The notes under the pieces are model-generated. The model was not told the origin of the DNA. It ran no database searches and saw only the letters and a list, made by a program, of their open reading frames with translations. 64,000 nucleotides of DNA from Chloroflexota bacterium (lineage in GTDB: Bacteria; Chloroflexota; Anaerolineae; SpSt-313): contig JAKPJZ010000119.1 in the NCBI GenBank assembly GCA_029553955.1, positions 1 to 64,000 on the forward strand. The letters are read 5' to 3'. Shown here piece after piece: positions 2,057 through 12,631 of this stretch. The translations under genes were made by a program, and so were the position numbers. Each line of letters begins with the position of its first letter. Within the stretch, counting starts at the first letter, position 1.

Positions 2057-2085
2057 TTGACAGGCATGGGCTAGCCTTGTATATT
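2057..2085 (+). promoter_or_regulatory. Promoter of the BREX cluster
   Basis: TTGACA at 2057-2062, a 17-base spacer, then TATATT at 2080-2085: a near-consensus housekeeping promoter about 85 bases before brxF. No other strong promoter was seen inside the cluster, so the genes may be one transcript. Confidence 0.75.
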
Positions 2086-2170
2086 ACACCCTGTACACTA
2101 CACCTGCTTGGTTCGCCAGGCGCCGACTACCATACGGCGGCCATGGCGGGGCGACGAGCAAGGAGGCATC

Positions 2171-2650
2171 GTGCCCGCATCACTGCCAGAACAGATCCTC
2201 CGCGCTATCGACGACGCGGGCGACCTCTACTACCGCCTCGTCCTCCTCGCGGCGCCCGCCGGCGGCGGCAAGACGGCGGCGCTGCTGGCGCTGGCCGAGC
2301 GGCCCGGCTTCCGTTACCTCAACGTCAACCTCGAGCTGAGCCGGCGCCTGCTCGAGCTGAGCGCGCGCGAACGCTCGCTGGCGGTGCCGCGGCTGCTCGG
2401 CGAGATCGTGGCTGGCGACGGTCACGTGGCCCTGCTCGACAATATCGAGATCCTCTTTGACGTCTCCCTCAAGGTCGATCCCTTGCGCCTGCTGCAGCGG
2501 CTCTCGCGCAACCGCACGGTCGTCGCGGCGTGGAACGGTTCGGTCGAGGGTGGCTACCTGACCTACGCCGCGCCCGACCACGCCGAGCACCGCCGCTATG
2601 CGGCGCGCGAGCTGTTGGTGCTGCGGCCCAAGGCGGGGAGCGGCCTCTGA
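2171..2650 (+). CDS. brxF: BREX type 3 small ATPase BrxF
   Basis: 159 residues. A P-loop APAGGGKT lies near residues 27-34 and an acidic LLDNIEILFD strand (Walker B-like) near 85-95. Size, motif and position directly before a large BrxC fit BrxF, the small P-loop protein of type 3 BREX phage defence. The start is GTG at 2171, with AAGGAGG four bases upstream; the frame stays open further upstream, but no other start has a good ribosome-binding site. It is followed after 24 bases by brxC. BrxF identity rests on context and the P-loop; the biochemical role of BrxF is poorly known. Confidence 0.7.
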   Translation: MPASLPEQILRAIDDAGDLYYRLVLLAAPAGGGKTAALLALAERPGFRYLNVNLELSRRLLELSARERSLAVPRLLGEIVAGDGHVALLDNIEILFDVSLKVDPLRLLQRLSRNRTVVAAWNGSVEGGYLTYAAPDHAEHRRYAARELLVLRPKAGSGL

Positions 2651-2674
2651 TGGTGCTGATAGAAGGAGCGCATC

Positions 2675-5600
2675 GTGAAGTATGGTGACTTGATCCAGTT
2701 CGAGCCCATCGAAACGGCGGTGCAACTGCTCCACGCCGACGAGGGGGCGCGGGCACAGCAACTGGTGTCGACCTATGTCATCTCGGCCGACATGGCCGAG
2801 CGGCTGCTGTTCGTCGCCTTCCCACAGCTCCAGTTCCAGCAGCCGGCCGACAACAAGGGCCTGCTCGTGGTGGGCAACTATGGCACCGGCAAGTCGCACC
2901 TGATGTCGGCCATCTCGGCGGTGGCCGAGCACGCCGAGCTGGCGGGCGCGCTGCGCCATCCCCAGGTAGCCCAGGCCGCCGCGGCCATTGCCGGCAGGTT
3001 CAAAGTAGTGCGCGTCGAGATCGGCTCGACCGAGAACTCGCTGCGCAACATGCTCACCCACGAGCTGGAGGAGCACCTGGCCGCGCTGGACGTGAGCTAC
3101 AGCTTCCCATCGGCGAGCGAGGTGACCAGCAACAAGCCGGCGCTGAGCCAGATGATGGCCGCCTTCCACGAGCGCTACCCCGACCACGGACTGCTGCTCG
3201 TGGTCGACGAGCTGCTCGATTACCTGGCCAGCCGCGGCGACCACGACCTGCGGCGCGACCTCAACTTTTTGCGCGAGCTGGGCGAAGCCTGCCGCGACCT
3301 CAAATTCCGCGTCATCGCCGGCATACAGGAGATGCTCTTCGACAACCCGCGCTTTGCCTACGTGGCCGAGACGATGCGCCGCGTGAAGGACCGCTTCGAG
3401 CAGGTGCTCATCGCGCGCAGCGATGTCAAGTACGTCGTCGCCCAGCGCCTGCTGCGCAAAGACGCCGGGCAGGAGGCCAAGATCAGAGCCCACCTGACGC
3501 CCTTTGCCAGGTTCTATGGCGACATGGGCGCCCGTATGGATGAGTACGTCAGCCTCTTCCCGGTGCACCCGGCCTACATCGACATCTTTGACCGCCTCGC
3601 CGTCGTCGAAAAGCGCGAGGCGCTGCGCACGCTCTCGCGCGCCATGCAGCGCCTGCTCGACCAGGAGGTGCCCCCAGACCGTCCTGGCCTGATCGCATTC
3701 GATAGCTACTGGCAGACCCTGCGCGAGAATGCGGCCTTCCGCGCCATCCCCGATGTAGGCGAGGTGCTCAAGTGCGCCACCCGGCTGGAGGAGCTGGTCG
3801 AGGTCGGCTACCCCAAGGGCAAGGACAAGGCCTTTGCCCGGCGCATCATCCACGGCCTCAGCGTCTACCGCCTGGCGGTGGGCGACATCCAGGCCAAGGT
3901 CGGCCTGACCGCCGAGGCGCTGCGCGATGCGCTCTGCCTCTACGAGCCGCTGGTGGCCGAGCTGGGCGGCGACCCGGCCGACGACCTGCGCGGCGAGGTG
4001 GAGACGGCGCTGCGCCTGATCAGCAGCACGGTCAACGGCCAGTTCATCTCGGCCAGCGAGTACGACGCCGACGGCCGTCCGGGCGGCCAGTTCTACCTCG
4101 ACGTGCACAAGATCGTGGATTATCCTGCCGAGATCGACAAGCGCGCCGAGAGCCTCGACGACGACACGCTGGACCGCTACTACTTTGAGGCCCTCACGCG
4201 GGCGCTCGAGTGCAGCGATCAGACGCGCGTGCCCCACTACCGCATCTGGGAGCACGAGCTCGAATGGCGCCAGCGCAAGGCCTCAAGGCGGGGCTACCTC
4301 TTCTTTGGTGCGCCCAACGAGCGCTCGACGGCGCAGCCGCCGCGCGACTTTTACCTCTACTTCCTGCAGCCGCACCAGCCGCCCACCTTCGACGACGAGA
4401 AGAAGGCCGACGAGGTCTTTTTCCGGCTCACCGGCGCCGACGATGCCTTCCGCCTGCACCTGCGCCGCTACGCCGCCGCCCAAGAGCTGGCCGCCATTCA
4501 CTCGGGCGTCGACAAGGAAGCCTACGAGCAGTTTGCCAGTGACTTTTTGCAAAAGCTGGTCAAGTGGCTGCAGGAGCACATGGCGGGCGCCTTTGCGGTG
4601 ACGCACCAGGGCAAGGCGCTGCCCCTGCTCGAATGGCTCAAGGGCCAGCCCGCCGGCGTTGGCGGCGTGCCGGCCAACGTGCGCGACCTGCTCAACGCCG
4701 TGGCTGCGAGCTGCCTGGCGGCCCACTTTGCCGACCAGGCACCCGAATACCCCAGCTTCTCGGTGCTCGTCACCGCTGCCAACCGCGCCCAGGCCGCACA
4801 GGATGCGCTGCGCTGGCTCAAGGGCACCGTCAAGACGCAGCAGGCTGCGGCCGTGCTCGACGCGCTGGAGCTGCTCGACGGCGACCAGCTCGACCCGCCG
4901 CGCTCGCGCTACGCCAACCACATCCTCGGCGAGCTGCAGAAGAAGGGCGGCCAGGTGCTGAACCGCGCCGAGCTGATCAGCGACGTGCATGGCGTGGAAT
5001 ACCTGGCGCCCGAGCGCTTCCGCCTGGAGCCCGAGTGGGTGGTGGTGCTGGCGGCGGCGCTCGTCTACCGCGGCGATGCCGAGCTGGTCATCCCCGGCGC
5101 CCGCTTCGACGCGGGCATGCTCGATGCCCTCGCGGCCACGCCACTCAGCGAGCTGGTCAATTTCAAGCACCTCGCCCCCGCCAGGGAGTGGCCGCTGCCC
5201 GCGCTGCGCGCGCTCTTTGAGCTGCTCGGCCTGGCGCCAGGGCTGGCCGTGCTGGTGACGCAGGGGCAGGATGGCCCGGCGCAGCAGCTGCAAAAGGCGC
5301 TGGCCGAACGGGTCAACCGGCTGGTGCTGGCGCGGCAGCCGTTGCAGGGCGGCATGCTCTTTTGGGGCCAGCCTGTGCTCACCACTCCCGAGCAGGAGGC
5401 GACGCGCGCCCAGCTCGACGCGCTGAAGGGGTTCCTGGAATCGCTGCAGGCCTACACCACGCCAGGCAAGTTCAAGAACCTGCGCTATACCGAAGCCGAG
5501 ATCAAGGCCCAGGCGCCGGCGGTGCAGGCGCTCGAGCGGCTGGTCGCGCTGCAGGCGCTGCTGGCCGAGCTGGCGCCGCTGACAGGCTACCTGGGCCAGG

Positions 5601-6430
5601 CCGAGGCCGCGCTGCCCAAGGATCATGCGCAGGACCTGCTCGCCGCCATGCTGGAGGCACGCAACGACATCGTGGCCCAGTTGCGCACGCCCGCCAAGCG
5701 AGAAGCCCCAGGCTTTGCGCAGGCCACCCTGCAGCGCCTGGGCGCGCTGAAGAAGGGCTATATCCAGGCCTACGCCAGCCTGCACGCCCGCGCCCGCCTG
5801 GGCACCAGCGAGCATCAGCGGCAGATGGCCTTGCTCAAAGACTATCGCTTGCTGCGCCTGCGCAAGCTGACGGCCATCGAGCTGCTGCCGGCGCACCAGT
5901 TCAAGGCCATCGAGCTGCGCCTGACCGGCCTCAAGTGCTGCCCGGCGCTGCTCACCGCCGAGCTCGAGGCCTACCCCATCTGCGGCCACTGCGGCTACAA
6001 CCCGGCGACCGAGCCGCTGTACATGAGCGTCAACGCCATCCTCGACAGCGTCGACCAACAGATGAGCAAGATGCTGGCCGACTGGACTCAGATCCTGCTG
6101 CAGAACCTCGACGAAGCGGCCACGCCCCAGAACCTGGCGCTACTCGGCCCCGAGCGCCGGGCACTGGTCGAGGCCCTGCTCGCCTCGCGCACGCTGCCCT
6201 ACGAGCTGAGCGACGAGCTCATTGCCGCCATCCGCGAGCTGCTGGCCGGGCTGGTCAAGGTCGTCATCGCCATCGACGAGCTGCGCGCCGTACTGGCTGC
6301 CGATGGGGCGCCGGTCACGCCGGCAGAGACGAGGAAACGCTTTGAGCAGTATCTGGCCGCGCTGACGAAAGGCCTGGATCCGGGCAAGGTTCGCGTCGTA
6401 GTGCAAGACAACAGGGGCGAGCCGGCCTAG
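2675..6430 (+). CDS. brxC: BREX large ATPase BrxC/PglY
   Basis: 1251 residues, the usual size for BrxC. Walker [10 protein letters not shown] is at residues 67-75 and a Walker B-like [12 protein letters not shown] near 172-183. These mark the AAA+ domain at the N terminus; the long remainder is mostly helical. Near residue 1075-1100 is a cysteine cluster ending in CGHCGY that could bind zinc. BrxC is an essential part of BREX, which methylates host DNA and blocks phage replication. The GTG start at 2675 has AAGGAG 7 bases upstream. It sits between brxF and pglXI as in type 3 systems. The family call is firm; the zinc site is inference. Confidence 0.85.
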
Positions 6431-6516
6431 CAGGCTGTCGCAAAACCATCCCGCTGGCCGCAGCATCCCGGTAGCAGCCGGGCACTTTGCTGCGCTGCCG
6501 CCCGGCTCTGAGCCAG

Positions 6517-6612
6517 GAGGGGTTCTTGGTTGGCTGGCCCTGCTGGCCGCCCCTGGCGCGCCTGCGGGCGCGCCAGGGGCGGCCAGCAGGGCCAGCCAAC
6601 CAAGAACCCCTC
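6517..6612. repeat. Long perfect palindrome P2 (46-base arms, 4-base loop)
   Basis: Left arm 6517-6562, loop TGCG, right arm 6567-6612, no mismatch. This is the longest of the family and the only one with a loop. The outer end reads GAGGGGTTCTTGG. The right flank (6613-6665) holds the conserved flank A on the reverse strand (GCTTCGC and GCCCGG). The left flank (about 6445-6516) holds flank B, itself able to pair GCCGGG with CCCGGC. It lies inside the BREX operon between brxC and pglXI. Confidence 0.95.
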
Positions 6613-6687
6613 ACAAGGGCCTATGCCGGGCTCGTGCGAAGCATGCCAGCCGGCACTCGCCCGGATTGTTGACAGTGAGGAGAGGCC

Positions 6688-9480
6688 ATGACAGACGCCG
6701 ACGCAGGCACGCAGACCCCCCTGTGGTCCAATGACGACCAGCAGCCCCAGGGCACTGTCGAGTGCCTGGGCATGACTTTCGAGAGCGACGAGGCGCGCCG
6801 CGCCTACTTTCTCGACAGGCTGCGCGCCAAGCTCGCCGATCCCGAGTTCCGCAAGATCGAGGGCTTTCCTATCGGCGAGGATGAGGACATCCTGCGCCTC
6901 TCCGACCCGCCCTACTACACCGCCTGCCCCAACCCCTTTATCGAGGATTTCATCCGCTGCTACGGCCGGCCCTACGACCCCGAGCACGACGGCTATCACC
7001 GCGAGCCCTTTGCCGCCGACGTCAGCGAGGGCAAGAGCGACCCCATCTACAACGCCCACAGCTACCACACCAAGGTGCCACACAAGGCCATCATGCGCTA
7101 CATCCTGCACTACACCGAGCCCGGCGACATTGTCTACGATGGCTTTTGCGGCAGTGGCATGACCGGCGTCGCCGCGCAGCTCTGCGGCGACGCCAAGGCC
7201 GTGCAAGCGCTGGGCTACCGCGTCGAGGGCGATACCGTCTATGACGGCGAGACGGCCATTGCCCGCCTCGGCGCGCGCCGGGCCGTGCTCGTCGACCTCT
7301 CGCCGGCGGCCACCTTTATCGCCTACAACTATAATGTGCCAGTGGATGTTGATGCCTTCCAGTCCGCTGCAACGGGAGTGCTTGATCGTTTCGATGCCGA
7401 GTGCGGATGGATGTACAGGACCAGACACAGCGACGGTAGGCTCGTCGGACGGATCAACTACGTGATCTGGTCTGACGTCTTTCTGTGCCCCCAATGCCAG
7501 TGTGAGGTGATCTTCTGGCTCCACGCTAGTGAGGACGGCCAGATCAGGGATAACATCGGCTGTCCGAACTGTGGAGCAGAAGTCAGCAAGCGTTCACTCG
7601 AGAGGGCCAAGACGACGGTAGTTGACCGAGCCTTAGGCAGACCCGTACCAAAAGCCAAGCGCGTTCCTGTTGTGATCAACTATGCTGTCGGTCAAACACG
7701 CTTCGAGAAGGCTCCCGACGAAGAGGACCTCTCTCTTCTGGACCGGATTGAGCACGAGGCAATCCCCGTATGGTATCCGACCGACCGAATAGACAGGGAT
7801 ATCGACCTTTGGTATGAACGGGACTACCGCAGTCTGGGAATCTACACCGTGGACTCCTTCTTCCACCAGCGCAGTCTCATGACGATGGCCCTTCTGCAAG
7901 AGCAGATCTCTAGCAAGCAAGGCAGAGTTGGAGCCTTGCTGCGATTCTGGCTTCAGTCGGTGCTCATGGGTTTCTCGCTGCTCAACCGGTATCGGGCCAA
8001 GGGGTACTCACAGGTAAACCAGATCCTCAGTGGGACACTCTATGTCGGCGCAGTGCTAGCCGAGATTAGCCCCTGGTATGCTCTTGTGGGCAAGATTGCC
8101 CGACTCAGAACATTTGGGTTTCTGAAGAACGGGCGTGCCATCATCGCAACGAGGTCGGCAACTGCGAGTAGTGTGCCTGATGCGTCTGTCGATTACATTT
8201 TCACTGACCCCCCATTTGGCAGCAACATCATCTATTCCGACCTTAGTATCATATGGGAGTCGTGGCTTCGGTTGTCAACGAACACGGGTTCGGAAGCAGT
8301 AGTACACCGACGCAAGAAGGCGCAGGCATCCACTCTCGGGGATTACGCGCAACTCATGGCGAGCTGCTTCGCCGAGATGCGACGCGTGCTCAAACCTGGC
8401 CGCTGGATCACGGTGGAGTTCCATAACTCAAAGAATAGTGTCTGGAATGCTATACAGGTCGCGCTCCAGCGTGCAGGTTTGGTAGTCGCCGATGTGCGCA
8501 CGCTGGACAAGCAGACGGGGACGTTTAAGCAGGTAACCGCGTCAGGCGCTGTGAAGCAGGATCTTGTAGTCTCGGCCTATAAGCCTGATGGTGGTCTTGA
8601 GGAACGCTTCCAGCTTGAGGCCGGGACGGAAGAAGGGGCATGGGATTTTGCGCGGGCGCATCTGCAGCAGCTCCCTGTGTTTGTGCTAGAGGATGACCGC
8701 GTTCAGATGGTTCCTGAACGCATGAACTACCTGCTGTTCGACAGAATGGTGGCGTTCCATGTCGAGCGAGGAGTCACAGTACCCCTCTCTGCTTCGGAGT
8801 TCTACACCGGGCTAAAGCAACGCTTCGTGGAGCGCGATGGCATGTACTTCCTGCCCGAGCAGGCCGCCGAGTACGACCAGAAGCGCGCCGCAGCCAGCGA
8901 GGTGATGCAACTGCAGCTCATCATCACCGGCGAGGAGTCGGCCATCCAGTGGCTGCGTCTTCGGCTCGACGACCATCCCCAAACCTTCCAGGAGCTGCAC
9001 CCGCAGTTCATGCGCGAGCTCGCCGGCTGGCAGCGCCACGAGCGGCCGCTGGAGCTCGCCGAGCTGCTGGAGCAGAACTTTTTGTGCTACGATGGCGTAG
9101 GCGCGCTGCCGGCGCAAATCCGGCGTTACCTCTCGGCAAGCGACGAGGCGCTGCGCGACCTGCCCGCCGAGCACCCGGCGCTCCTTGCCGCCGCCCGCGA
9201 CCGCTGGTACGTGCCCGACCCCAACCGTGCCGGCGACCTGGAAAAGCTGCGCGAGCGGGCGCTCTTGCGCGAGTTTGACGACTATCGCCGCAGCAAGGAG
9301 CGCAAGCTCAAGGTCTTCCGGCTCGAGGCGGTGCGCGCCGGCTTTAGGCGCGCCTGGCAGGAAAAGGACTATCAGACCATCCTCGAGGTGGCCGCCAAGA
9401 TCCCCGACGACGTGCTGCAGGAGGACGCCAAGCTGCTGATGTGGCGCGAGCAGGCGCGCACGCGTGTGGGCGAGGCGTAG
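6688..9480 (+). CDS. pglXI: BREX DNA adenine methyltransferase PglX (PglXI type)
   Basis: 930 residues. The SAM-binding motif FCGSGMTG is near residues 152-159 and the catalytic TDPPFGSN near 505-512. Between them are two CxxC pairs (about 267-294) that look like a zinc ribbon. This motif order and spacing fit the PglXI methyltransferases of type 3 BREX, which mark host DNA so that BREX can tell it from phage DNA. The start at 6688 follows GAGGAG. The gene is mosaic: about 7325-8825, covering the catalytic DPPF and probable target-recognition part, is clearly less GC-rich and uses more A/T-ending codons than both ends. That suggests exchange of the specificity region. Confidence 0.85.
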   Translation: MTDADAGTQTPLWSNDDQQPQGTVECLGMTFESDEARRAYFLDRLRAKLADPEFRKIEGFPIGEDEDILRLSDPPYYTACPNPFIEDFIRCYGRPYDPEHDGYHREPFAADVSEGKSDPIYNAHSYHTKVPHKAIMRYILHYTEPGDIVYDGFCGSGMTGVAAQLCGDAKAVQALGYRVEGDTVYDGETAIARLGARRAVLVDLSPAATFIAYNYNVPVDVDAFQSAATGVLDRFDAECGWMYRTRHSDGRLVGRINYVIWSDVFLCPQCQCEVIFWLHASEDGQIRDNIGCPNCGAEVSKRSLERAKTTVVDRALGRPVPKAKRVPVVINYAVGQTRFEKAPDEEDLSLLDRIEHEAIPVWYPTDRIDRDIDLWYERDYRSLGIYTVDSFFHQRSLMTMALLQEQISSKQGRVGALLRFWLQSVLMGFSLLNRYRAKGYSQVNQILSGTLYVGAVLAEISPWYALVGKIARLRTFGFLKNGRAIIATRSATASSVPDASVDYIFTDPPFGSNIIYSDLSIIWESWLRLSTNTGSEAVVHRRKKAQASTLGDYAQLMASCFAEMRRVLKPGRWITVEFHNSKNSVWNAIQVALQRAGLVVADVRTLDKQTGTFKQVTASGAVKQDLVVSAYKPDGGLEERFQLEAGTEEGAWDFARAHLQQLPVFVLEDDRVQMVPERMNYLLFDRMVAFHVERGVTVPLSASEFYTGLKQRFVERDGMYFLPEQAAEYDQKRAAASEVMQLQLIITGEESAIQWLRLRLDDHPQTFQELHPQFMRELAGWQRHERPLELAELLEQNFLCYDGVGALPAQIRRYLSASDEALRDLPAEHPALLAAARDRWYVPDPNRAGDLEKLRERALLREFDDYRRSKERKLKVFRLEAVRAGFRRAWQEKDYQTILEVAAKIPDDVLQEDAKLLMWREQARTRVGEA

Positions 9481-9498
9481 TGCTGTAGACCTGGCAGG

Positions 9499-9835
9499 TC
9501 TCGGAGACCTGTCACAGCGATTTCCATGGCGGGTGGTCAGCGCCAGCTTTCTGGCAAAGACTCCGTCCAGTTCGCGCCACAGCCGATAGGCGATTCCGCC
9601 TCCTGCAGGGTGGGGCCCTCGCTACCCGTCCCCCGTCGCGGGGGAATTGGGGCACACGACTGCGCCCAGTGTGGCCAAGAAGCGGCAAACGAGCCGTGAG
9701 GGGTGACGACAGCCAGCCCAATTCCCCCGCGACGGGGGAACGGTAGGGGGGCCCTAGCCGCCGGCATGGACAGGCCCCTGGCGGAGTTTTCGCCAATCGA
9801 TACGCCGCCATGGGAATCGGTGTGTCAGGTCTGCA
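9499..9835. mobile_element. MITE-like inverted-repeat element, copy 1, in the expected brxHII slot
   Basis: The left end (about 9503-9533) and right end (about 9803-9833) are near-complementary: GACCTG, CACA, CGATT and CCATGGCGG repeat in inverse order. Inside, 9618-9760 is a second inverted repeat built on CCCCGTCGCGGGGGAATT, a family also present at 34691-34847. There is no coding frame for a transposase. A relative lies at 19492-19680 and a fragment at 42225-42330. The element fills the gap between pglXI and pglZ, and its right end supplies the AAGGAGA before pglZ. Confidence 0.75.
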
Positions 9836-9845
9836 AGGAGAGACA

Positions 9846-11843
9846 ATGACTTGGCGTGAGCGCATCCTGGCCGAGTTCGCCCCGGGCATGGCCCGCCTCA
9901 CCCTGGCGGCGGACCCGGACCACCTGCTGAGCGAAGAGGGCATCCTGCAGGGCATCCACGAGCGGGGCTTTGACCTCATCCCCTTCGCCGACCCGGTGGC
10001 CTTTCGCTACGCCTACGAGTCGCGCTACCGCTCGCTGTGGGACCGCGGCGCGCCGACCGACCTGGTGGTGGTGCTGCACTCGGCCGCGGCCGACCTGCGC
10101 GCCCTGCCCTACGACCTGCTGCAGGCCGGGCGCCGCGTGGCCTTTAGCCTGGGCGAGCTCTTTCCCAGCCTGAGCTACCCCGTGGTCAGCGCCCTCGACC
10201 GCGCTCACCTCGACGCCCTGTACCAGGCCCAGGCGCAGTACAAGCCCGGCCCGCTGGGCGACAATGCCACCAGGGATTTCGTGCTGCGCCACGTCTTTGA
10301 GGTCGCGCCCGAGCTCATCAAGCAGCCGGCCGACCTGCTGCGCCTGCTCTTGCGCCGGCACTACCGCCGGCAGCAGGTGCCCGCGACCATCGAGGCCCGG
10401 CTGGTGCAGCTCTTGCGCCAGGGCGGCGCCTTTGCCGATTGGCCGCTCGAGGCCATCGTGCCCGACCGCGAGGCCTTTTTCGCCTTCCTGCAGGAGCGCT
10501 GGCCGGCGTACCTCGACGCCGTGGCCGCGGCGCCCGAGGCCATCTGCGAACCGCCGCAGCCGCCCCACTTCGAGCTGCCTGGCCCGGCCACGCTGCCCTT
10601 TGGCGATGACGACGTGCGCGTCTACATCGACAACCTCTTTGCCGATGGCGTGCTGCGGCCGGTGGCGCACCGGCGGGCCAGCGCGCTCCAGGGCCGCTGG
10701 GTGGCGGTGGGGCTGCGCCTGGACCCCCAGGCCGACCGCGCCAGACAGCTCGATGCGCTCTTCAAGGCGCTCGAGGGCGGCATCCCGCCGGCGCAGGCCA
10801 GCTACCAGGCCTGGCTGGCCCTGGCGCCGCGGCTGGCGCAGTTGCTCGCCCTCTGGCACAGCCCGGCCGCCCCAGCGCCGCAGGCCGGCGAGCGGCTGGC
10901 AGCGCTGCAGGCGCAGCTCGACGCCGCCTTCCTGGCCTGGGCGCAGGCGCGCTATGGGGGCCTGCATAACCAGCCCGTGCCGCCGGCGGTGATGCTGCAC
11001 CATGTGCCGCGCGTTATGGCGGCGCGCCTGCAGCGCCCCGGCGGCAAGGCCGCGCTCGTAGTGGTCGACGGGCTGGCCTGCGACCAGTGGCTGCTGCTGC
11101 GCCAGGCCCTCGAGGGCGCGCGGCCACGGCTCCGGCTGCGCGAGGGCGCCGTGTTTGCCTGGCTGCCCACCATCACCGCGGTCTCGCGCCAGGCGCTCTT
11201 TGCCGGCCGGCCGCCGCTCTACTTCCCCGCCAGCCTGCACACCACGGCCAAGGAGCCGGCGCTGTGGTCGCAGTTCTGGCAGGATGCCGGCCTGGCGCCA
11301 ACGGAAGTGGCCTACGTTGGCGGCCTGGGCGAGCTGCCCGACCTGGCGCGGGTCGAGGAGCTGCTGGCGCACCCCAAGCTGCGCGTGGCCGGGCTGGTGG
11401 TCGACAAGGTCGACCGCATCATGCACGGCATGGAGCTGGGCAGCGCCGGCATGCACAACCAGGTGCGCCAGTGGGCCGGCGAGGGCTTTATCGCGGGCCT
11501 GCTCGAGCTGCTCGTGAACCGCGGCTACCGCGTGCTGCTCACCGCCGATCACGGCAACGTCGAGGCCCTCGGCATCGGCTCGCCGGCGGAGGGCGCCAGC
11601 GCCGATTTGCGGGCCGCCCGCGTGCGCGTATACTCCGACGGTGCGTTGCGCGGCCAGGTGCAGGCGCATTTCCCCGGGGCCATCGCCTGGCCGCCAACGG
11701 GCCTGCCGCAGGGCTATCTGCCGCTGCTCGCGCCCGGCCGCAGCGCCTTCATTGCCAAGGGCCAGCGCACGGTGGCGCATGGCGGCCTTTCCGTCGAGGA
11801 GGCGATCGTCCCGTTGATCGAGATCGAGGCCAGGGGCAGATGA
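9846..11843 (+). CDS. pglZ: BREX alkaline phosphatase-superfamily protein PglZ
   Basis: 665 residues. The C-terminal half carries the alkaline-phosphatase-like fold: a metal-site strand ALVVVDGLACDQW near 401-413, a nucleophile-region VSRQALFAG near 442-450, LLTADHGN near 564-571, and a final AHGGLSVEEA. The N-terminal 250 residues look helical and include RDFVLRHVFEV. PglZ is shared by all BREX types and is needed for methylation and defence. The start is ATG at 9846 behind AAGGAGA; an upstream ATG at 9810 is in frame but lies in the repeat element. It overlaps the next gene by four bases (ATGA), so the two are translationally coupled. Confidence 0.88.
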   Translation: MTWRERILAEFAPGMARLTLAADPDHLLSEEGILQGIHERGFDLIPFADPVAFRYAYESRYRSLWDRGAPTDLVVVLHSAAADLRALPYDLLQAGRRVAFSLGELFPSLSYPVVSALDRAHLDALYQAQAQYKPGPLGDNATRDFVLRHVFEVAPELIKQPADLLRLLLRRHYRRQQVPATIEARLVQLLRQGGAFADWPLEAIVPDREAFFAFLQERWPAYLDAVAAAPEAICEPPQPPHFELPGPATLPFGDDDVRVYIDNLFADGVLRPVAHRRASALQGRWVAVGLRLDPQADRARQLDALFKALEGGIPPAQASYQAWLALAPRLAQLLALWHSPAAPAPQAGERLAALQAQLDAAFLAWAQARYGGLHNQPVPPAVMLHHVPRVMAARLQRPGGKAALVVVDGLACDQWLLLRQALEGARPRLRLREGAVFAWLPTITAVSRQALFAGRPPLYFPASLHTTAKEPALWSQFWQDAGLAPTEVAYVGGLGELPDLARVEELLAHPKLRVAGLVVDKVDRIMHGMELGSAGMHNQVRQWAGEGFIAGLLELLVNRGYRVLLTADHGNVEALGIGSPAEGASADLRAARVRVYSDGALRGQVQAHFPGAIAWPPTGLPQGYLPLLAPGRSAFIAKGQRTVAHGGLSVEEAIVPLIEIEARGR

Positions 11844-12631
11844 GCACGCCCATACAGATCGGCTTTAGCCAACGCATCCGGCTCGAGTGGCTCGAGCATA
11901 CCGCCGCGCTGGCGCTCGCCGGCGCCACCCGCAGCGACATCGCAGCCGCGCTCAGCGACCTGCTGGGCGAGCGCCTGTCGGTAGGCAGCACCGCGCAGCG
12001 CGGCAACCGCGAGAAAGCCATCGGCATCCTGCTGAGCACCTGGGTCACGGTGCCCGGGCGCCTGGAGGGCTTGCGCCAGGAGGGGCTGGCGCACCTGCGC
12101 CGCCTGCCGCCGGAGCAGCACCTGGCCCTGCACTGGGGCATGGCCATGGCCGCCTACCCCTTCTTTGGCACGGTGGCCGAGGTCGCCGGCCGCCTGCTGC
12201 GGCTGCAGGGCAGCGTGGCGGCGGCGCAGGCGCAGCGGCGACTCCGTGAGCAGCTCGGCGAGCGCGAGACGGTCTCCCGAGCCGCGCGGCGCATCCTGCG
12301 CTGCTTTGTCGATTGGGACGTGCTGCGCGACACAGAGCGCAAGGGCGTCTACCTTGCGGCGCCGCTGCGCCCGCTGCCCGATGCGCCGCTCGCGGCCTGG
12401 CTCGTCGAGGCCGCGCTGCGGGCCAGCGGCGCCAGCTCGGCCCCGCTCGCCGCCCTGGCCCAGTCGCCGGCGCTCTTTCCGTTCACGCTCGGGGCGCCCA
12501 ACGGTGCCATCCGTACCAGCGAGCGGCTGGAGCTACTGCGGCAGGGGCTCGACCAGGACGTGGTGGCACTGCGCGGCAACGGCACCTACGAGCTCTACAA
12601 CCCGCGGGTGCACCCCCGCGTGCGCGAGTAG
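11840..12631 (+). CDS. BrxA-like BREX protein
   Basis: 263 residues, starting at the ATG that overlaps the pglZ stop. The N-terminal part is helical with the conserved-looking patch RGNREKAIGILLSTWV near 52-67. The middle and C-terminal parts could form a winged helix (SRAARRILRCFVDWDVL, then a basic stretch). In type 3 BREX the last gene after pglZ is brxA, and position, size and helical DNA-binding look agree. No catalytic motif is seen. BrxA binds DNA in other systems. Identity is inferred mainly from position. Confidence 0.6.
   Translation: MSTPIQIGFSQRIRLEWLEHTAALALAGATRSDIAAALSDLLGERLSVGSTAQRGNREKAIGILLSTWVTVPGRLEGLRQEGLAHLRRLPPEQHLALHWGMAMAAYPFFGTVAEVAGRLLRLQGSVAAAQAQRRLREQLGERETVSRAARRILRCFVDWDVLRDTERKGVYLAAPLRPLPDAPLAAWLVEAALRASGASSAPLAALAQSPALFPFTLGAPNGAIRTSERLELLRQGLDQDVVALRGNGTYELYNPRVHPRVRE

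Follow-up and report, generated by a model that had tools for sequence, protein, structure and literature searches.

The window analysed here, a stretch of 64,000 nucleotides from a Chloroflexota genome of the class Anaerolineae, contains at positions 2108-12631 of the plus strand a type 3 bacteriophage exclusion (BREX) gene set, brxF-brxC-pglXI-pglZ-brxA, from which the helicase gene brxHII is missing. The canonical order, as given in passages of two earlier reports (PMC10799925, PMC12839542), is brxF, brxC, pglXI, brxHII, pglZ, brxA. Judging from the sequence, we consider it reasonably probable that this five-gene system lost brxHII and still works without it. The window is part of contig C186 (154,425 bp) of a draft genome of 272 contigs, with an estimated completeness of 91.8% and an estimated contamination of 8.2%. 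The features of the locus are as follows, no strand being assigned to the two repeats.

2057-2085, plus strand: promoter-like site TTGACA-17-TATATT, 5′ of brxF (consensus scan, 11/12)
2108-2650, plus strand: brxF (PADLOC BrxF, 3.7e-59; NCBIfam BREX_3_BrxF, NF033453, 179.8 bits, cut-off 50)
2675-6430, plus strand: brxC, DUF6079 AAA+ ATPase of 1251 amino acids (PADLOC BrxC, 1687 bits; PF19557, 1533.6 bits)
6517-6612: perfect palindrome with 46-nt arms and a 4-nt loop, lying between brxC and pglXI and belonging to a family of hairpin repeats found genome-wide
6688-9480, plus strand: pglXI, type 3 BREX adenine methyltransferase of 930 amino acids (PADLOC PglXI, 1351.8 bits; PF01555, 7e-18)
9507-9830: hairpin element of 324 bp resembling a miniature inverted-repeat transposable element (MITE), with terminal inverted repeats ACCTGWCACACCGATTTCC and no open reading frame (ORF), in the pglX-pglZ gap
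9846-11843, plus strand: pglZ, 665 amino acids (NCBIfam BREX_PglZ_3, NF033449, 764.5 bits, cut-off 250; PADLOC PDLC02558, 902.6 bits)
11843-12631, plus strand: brxA, about 262 amino acids, overlapping the pglZ stop (PADLOC BrxA, 4.0e-84)

All five BREX genes were full length according to PADLOC, Pfam and NCBIfam profiles, as a preliminary description of this DNA had stated from its letters alone, and none of them contained a stop or frameshift. BrxF, an iSTAND-type small protein, and the BREX-3-type PglZ both scored above their NCBIfam cut-offs, BrxA was recognized by its PADLOC profile, and BrxC is of the DUF6079 kind, with a PF19557 match over its full length and intact Walker A (GNYGTGKS) and Walker B (LLVVDE) motifs. 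PglXI is a methyltransferase of the PF01555 kind, with DPPF and FCGSG motifs and a complete C-terminus. As read from the sequence, the likely start of brxF is the GTG at 2172, preceded by AAGGAGG. That of pglZ is the ATG at 9846, preceded by AAGGAGAG, from which the PglZ N-terminus aligns with its relatives; the start at 9810 given by the ORF-finder falls within the repeat.

The missing gene was sought with six BrxHII proteins of relatives as queries, which gave nothing above noise at E <= 10 in the slot before pglZ or elsewhere on contig C186. No brxHII orthologue was found in the rest of the 92%-complete assembly, where the best match to the BrxHII model reached 317 bits, compared with 740-1477 bits for authentic BrxHII proteins. 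This best match is HmaA of an HmaABC system, as identified by its neighbours, and the other matches were further SNF2 proteins, one of them interrupted by a stop. PglX and PglZ have their C-terminus and N-terminus, respectively, at the residues where relatives have them, so precisely one gene is missing and those on either side of it are uncut. The preliminary description, which had reported a BREX type 3-like cluster without BrxHII and proposed a genome search for a homologue in trans, was thus borne out at the level of slot, contig and assembly.

To compare related clusters for the same gap, we searched the class and phylum of the host, one Thermodesulfobacteriales record and plasmids for members of the BrxC and type 3 PglZ families. 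Since a contig scan with PglXI returned only one relative, the families were sought in whole genomes; the relatives are whatever these searches returned, a non-random sample in which several loci end at contig edges. No helicase was found between pglX and pglZ in 11 genomes (L032, L088, L089, L090, L092-L095, L101, L110 and L112), in which pglX is followed by pglZ with nothing or small unrelated genes in between, at junctions as tight as 1 nt (L032), 9 nt (L093) and 12 nt (L089 and L092). Helicase-free type 3 clusters are common in this phylum. Among its readable loci, BrxHII stands before pglZ in L055, L057, L063, L065, L087, L109 and the decayed L091, and a divergent BrxHII-like protein takes that position in L097, making eight genomes with such a gene; outside the phylum, BrxHII was found in L009 and Roseicitreum. 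Ten genomes were also searched for a BrxHII orthologue in trans, two with other-cargo clusters (G271 and G308) and the rest helicase-free, and none was found (best match 388 bits). The complete Enterococcus faecium plasmid pP47-180 (NZ_CP091103.1) encodes brxF-brxC-pglX-pglZ-brxA with no helicase and an 11-nt pglX-pglZ gap, and a second E. faecium plasmid (CP063640.1) has the helicase-free layout with pglZ disrupted by an IS256 element.

The slot before pglZ varies among these loci, being occupied by BrxHII, DruE, an AbiEi-like gene, IS200 or PDC-M26, or left empty. In L062 and L096 it holds other cargo with no helicase match, and in L098 and L099 a Druantia-type DruE lies directly before pglZ, in the order DruE-PglZ-BrxA. 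An extra gene, BxaP, has been reported between PglXI and BrxHII (PMC10799925), which is consistent with the slot being a cargo site. We also observed a HEC-02-type gene pair, a defence cargo in the same slot, between pglXI and brxHII of the Thermodesulfobacteriales BREX-3 locus (L009, 3863-5386). In the type 3-like cluster of L058 the order is BrxC-PglXI-(1266 amino acids)-DruE-BrxA with no PglZ match, and L059 is similar.

In the PglZ trees, ten rows (L032, L092-L096, L062 and L110-L112) form a clade at 100/99 that has no BrxHII, and a second group without it (L088, L090, L069 and L101, the slot of L069 being unread) has weaker support. The window lies among BrxHII carriers, as does the helicase-free L089, and the PglZ tree needs three or four state changes. 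In the BrxC tree the window and L089 are sisters (100/100), but PglZ rejects this pairing (approximately unbiased test, p = 0.019), a conflict that points either to shuffled parts or to independent losses. Because the window is placed among BrxHII carriers, we infer a loss of brxHII, which falls short of proof since the trees are unrooted. The sequences suggest that the window cluster probably lost the gene independently within a helicase-bearing lineage, and this loss need not be recent. The preliminary description had left the choice between a natural helicase-free variant and a recent deletion. For the form as a whole the former is the better reading, given its recurrence in the class, the phylum and an Enterococcus plasmid, its tight junctions and the lack of an in-trans orthologue in the ten genomes searched; the window cluster itself is likely a loss, without gene decay.

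That description had also seen a repeat in place of brxHII at 9481-9845. The 324-bp element is real: it is short, multicopy, free of ORFs and bounded by terminal inverted repeats, as expected of a MITE, it folds as a single hairpin (z = -9.9), and it occurs in at least 40 places in this genome, a lower bound, since scoring covered 40 of the 238 first-look candidates. It was not found in 40 related genomes at E <= 1e-15. A role as a replacement for brxHII found no support, as the family is scattered over the genome and relatives have the same gap without any repeat. The brxC-pglXI gap (6431-6687) contains a hairpin of a different family that is also genome-wide; both gaps are loaded by genome-wide repeats, and the 324-bp repeat is therefore no specific stand-in for brxHII. 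Its presence at the pglX-pglZ junction is incidental to the helicase absence. If the element is taken away, about 40 nt separate pglX from pglZ, or about 19 nt when the short palindrome AGACCTGGCAGGTCT (9487-9501), which lies 5′ of it here and likewise at several other copies, is counted with it; the gap is 1-12 nt in tight helicase-free relatives. The flanks of 28 copies showed no clear target-site duplication, several copies lie within palindromic flanks, and several also carry an extra AGACCTG palindrome. Some copies, such as those of L127 and L133, have inverted and not direct repeats on their flanks (GGGGAGACACCTG ... CAGGTGTCTCCCC in L127, for instance), which points to an odd insertion rule. 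In the stretch 1381-1847, upstream of the operon, a perfect palindrome with 38-nt arms (1381-1456) is followed by an apparent broken IS200/RAYT-like transposase, for which no Pfam match was found; some of the palindromic repeats possibly derive from this fragment. The single promoter that had been proposed for the operon corresponds to the 11/12 match at 2057, which is a consensus match only (3 sites observed against 0.6 expected in the scan), and the operon holds two strong hairpin repeats.

Of the columns in which all other aligned members agree, the window keeps 154/156 for PglX, 157/161 for BrxC, 43/43 for PglZ, 16/16 for BrxA and 14/15 for BrxF. This conservation argues for a working system and against long-standing decay, but a very recent loss of brxHII would show the same, and it is no proof of activity. 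Since the helicase-free form arose repeatedly and is common in the phylum, BrxHII, often called core, is probably dispensable in type 3 BREX. By analogy with other BREX types, PglXI would methylate host DNA, BrxC, BrxF and BrxA would detect unmodified invading DNA, and PglZ, a putative nuclease or phosphatase, would block its replication. BrxHII could then be an accessory translocase, open to loss or exchange, and the MITE-like hairpin a passenger that may have inserted into the short gap between pglX and pglZ while such repeats were spreading through the genome. It is possible, if somewhat short of probable, that helicase-free type 3 BREX constitutes a distinct, recurrently derived functional subtype, comprising an old clade and later independent losses including that of the window, in which PglZ restricts phage together with BrxC, BrxF and BrxA without a dedicated helicase, while various modules (BrxHII, DruE, AbiE-like genes or PDC-M26) can occupy the slot before pglZ.

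Two other gene sets were observed in the same genome. One is the HmaABC-type system on contig C37 (L041, 4032-13121), composed of an SNF2 helicase, an adenine methylase and an AAA+ ATPase. The other, on contig C108 (L043, 4381-16568), is a second BREX-like set with an SspC/BrxC-like ATPase bearing a DUF6079 C-terminus, a PglXI-like methyltransferase (467 bits), an Mrr_N protein, a PglZ-domain protein that has an Ig-like tail, and a BrxL of 487 amino acids. It is unusual to see a type-3-like methyltransferase next to BrxL. Methyltransferase and PglZ-domain genes similar to those of L043 occur about 7 kb apart on a Halorarius plasmid.

Several points weigh against a five-gene system that lost brxHII and still works. 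The operon is interrupted by two large hairpins, which could reduce its expression; the junction coincides exactly with the repeat, in an assembly of draft quality (272 contigs, 8% contamination); and BrxHII is named a core type 3 component in a passage of PMC12839542. The closest PglZ homologues and several BrxC homologues carry brxHII, so that the loss in the window may yet prove to be recent and harmful. The chief risks that remain are an inactive system and an assembly jump at the repeat, the latter judged unlikely. A recent deletion that left a crippled or methylation-only system, with decay not yet visible, would agree with the position of the window PglZ and BrxC within the BrxHII-bearing clade, with the hairpins in the operon, and with the decayed (L091) and fragmentary (L035) type 3 sets of the same class; we nevertheless regard it as rather unlikely, since the five genes have no stop or frameshift and keep nearly all invariant residues, L089, whose BrxC is sister to that of the window, is also helicase-free and intact, and an entire clade persists without BrxHII. 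An artefact, by which the assembler skipped from one repeat copy to another in a true locus of the order pglXI-repeat-brxHII-repeat-pglZ, draws on the draft state of the assembly and on a multicopy repeat with some copies at contig ends (C69, C76, C77 and C176). It is made improbable by the divergence of the copies, full-length ones being at least 14% different from that of the window and the longest exact run common to it and 27 sampled copies being 44 nt, by the lack of any brxHII-bearing contig in the assembly, and by relatives that have the same junction without any repeat.

The slot is almost exactly filled by the repeat, which begins just past the pglX stop and ends just short of the pglZ ribosome-binding site. 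This could mean that brxHII was excised by recombination between two flanking copies and that one copy is the scar. Two earlier insertions would be needed for this, whereas several relatives have tight junctions there, with brxHII overlapping or adjoining pglZ in L009, L057 and L109. Single copies of the same repeats are found at other sites of the genome, and neither brxHII nor the repeat is present in L089, L092 and L093; no target-site duplication is definable either way, and we consider such an excision very unlikely. There is likewise little probability that a helicase acts in trans, either HmaA from contig C37, whose SNF2 core is of the BrxHII type (317 bits to the BrxHII model), or the BrxL present in the same genome on C108. 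BREX components are usually encoded together, HmaA and BrxL each lie within a complete neighbourhood of their own, and 3 of the 10 genomes searched (G049, G527 and G580) had no match at E <= 1e-60. We retain a loss of brxHII from a system that most likely still works.

Compared with BREX type 3 as described, the window has five of the six genes in the same order and on the same strand, with PglZ and BrxF passing BREX-3-specific cut-offs, but lacks brxHII and carries two hairpin repeats in its intergenic gaps. According to the part of a 2026 Nucleic Acids Research survey available to us (PMC12839542), BrxHII is present in 702 taxa (77%), the type 3 taxa numbering 919 overall, which leaves about a quarter without it at the locus, as in the window. 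Its absence is therefore not new as a number; that part of the survey neither sets helicase-free loci apart as a form of their own nor counts genuine absences separately from fragmentary loci, and the useful addition made here is the clade-level pattern. The same source argues that PglZ is the main effector while unwinding is supplied by BrxL or BrxHI/BrxHII, a proposal that the helicase-free finding makes testable. BrxHII has been described as core to type 3 BREX and as a stand-in for the DNA-unwinding role of BrxL. Intact helicase-free clusters, some with near helicase-bearing relatives, offer a direct test of the helicase need.

Systems centred on DUF499 and related to BREX, such as Hma, of which this genome has HmaABC on C37, follow a homologous logic of ATPase, methyltransferase and SNF2 helicase, but their ATPase is of a different family and the helicase is retained. 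The BREX-3 of E. faecium pP47-180 has the same five-gene layout without a helicase, although it is distant, its PglZ being shorter (487 aa), with about 34% identity where the two align, and it shows that the helicase-free form exists in a well-sequenced group of organisms too.

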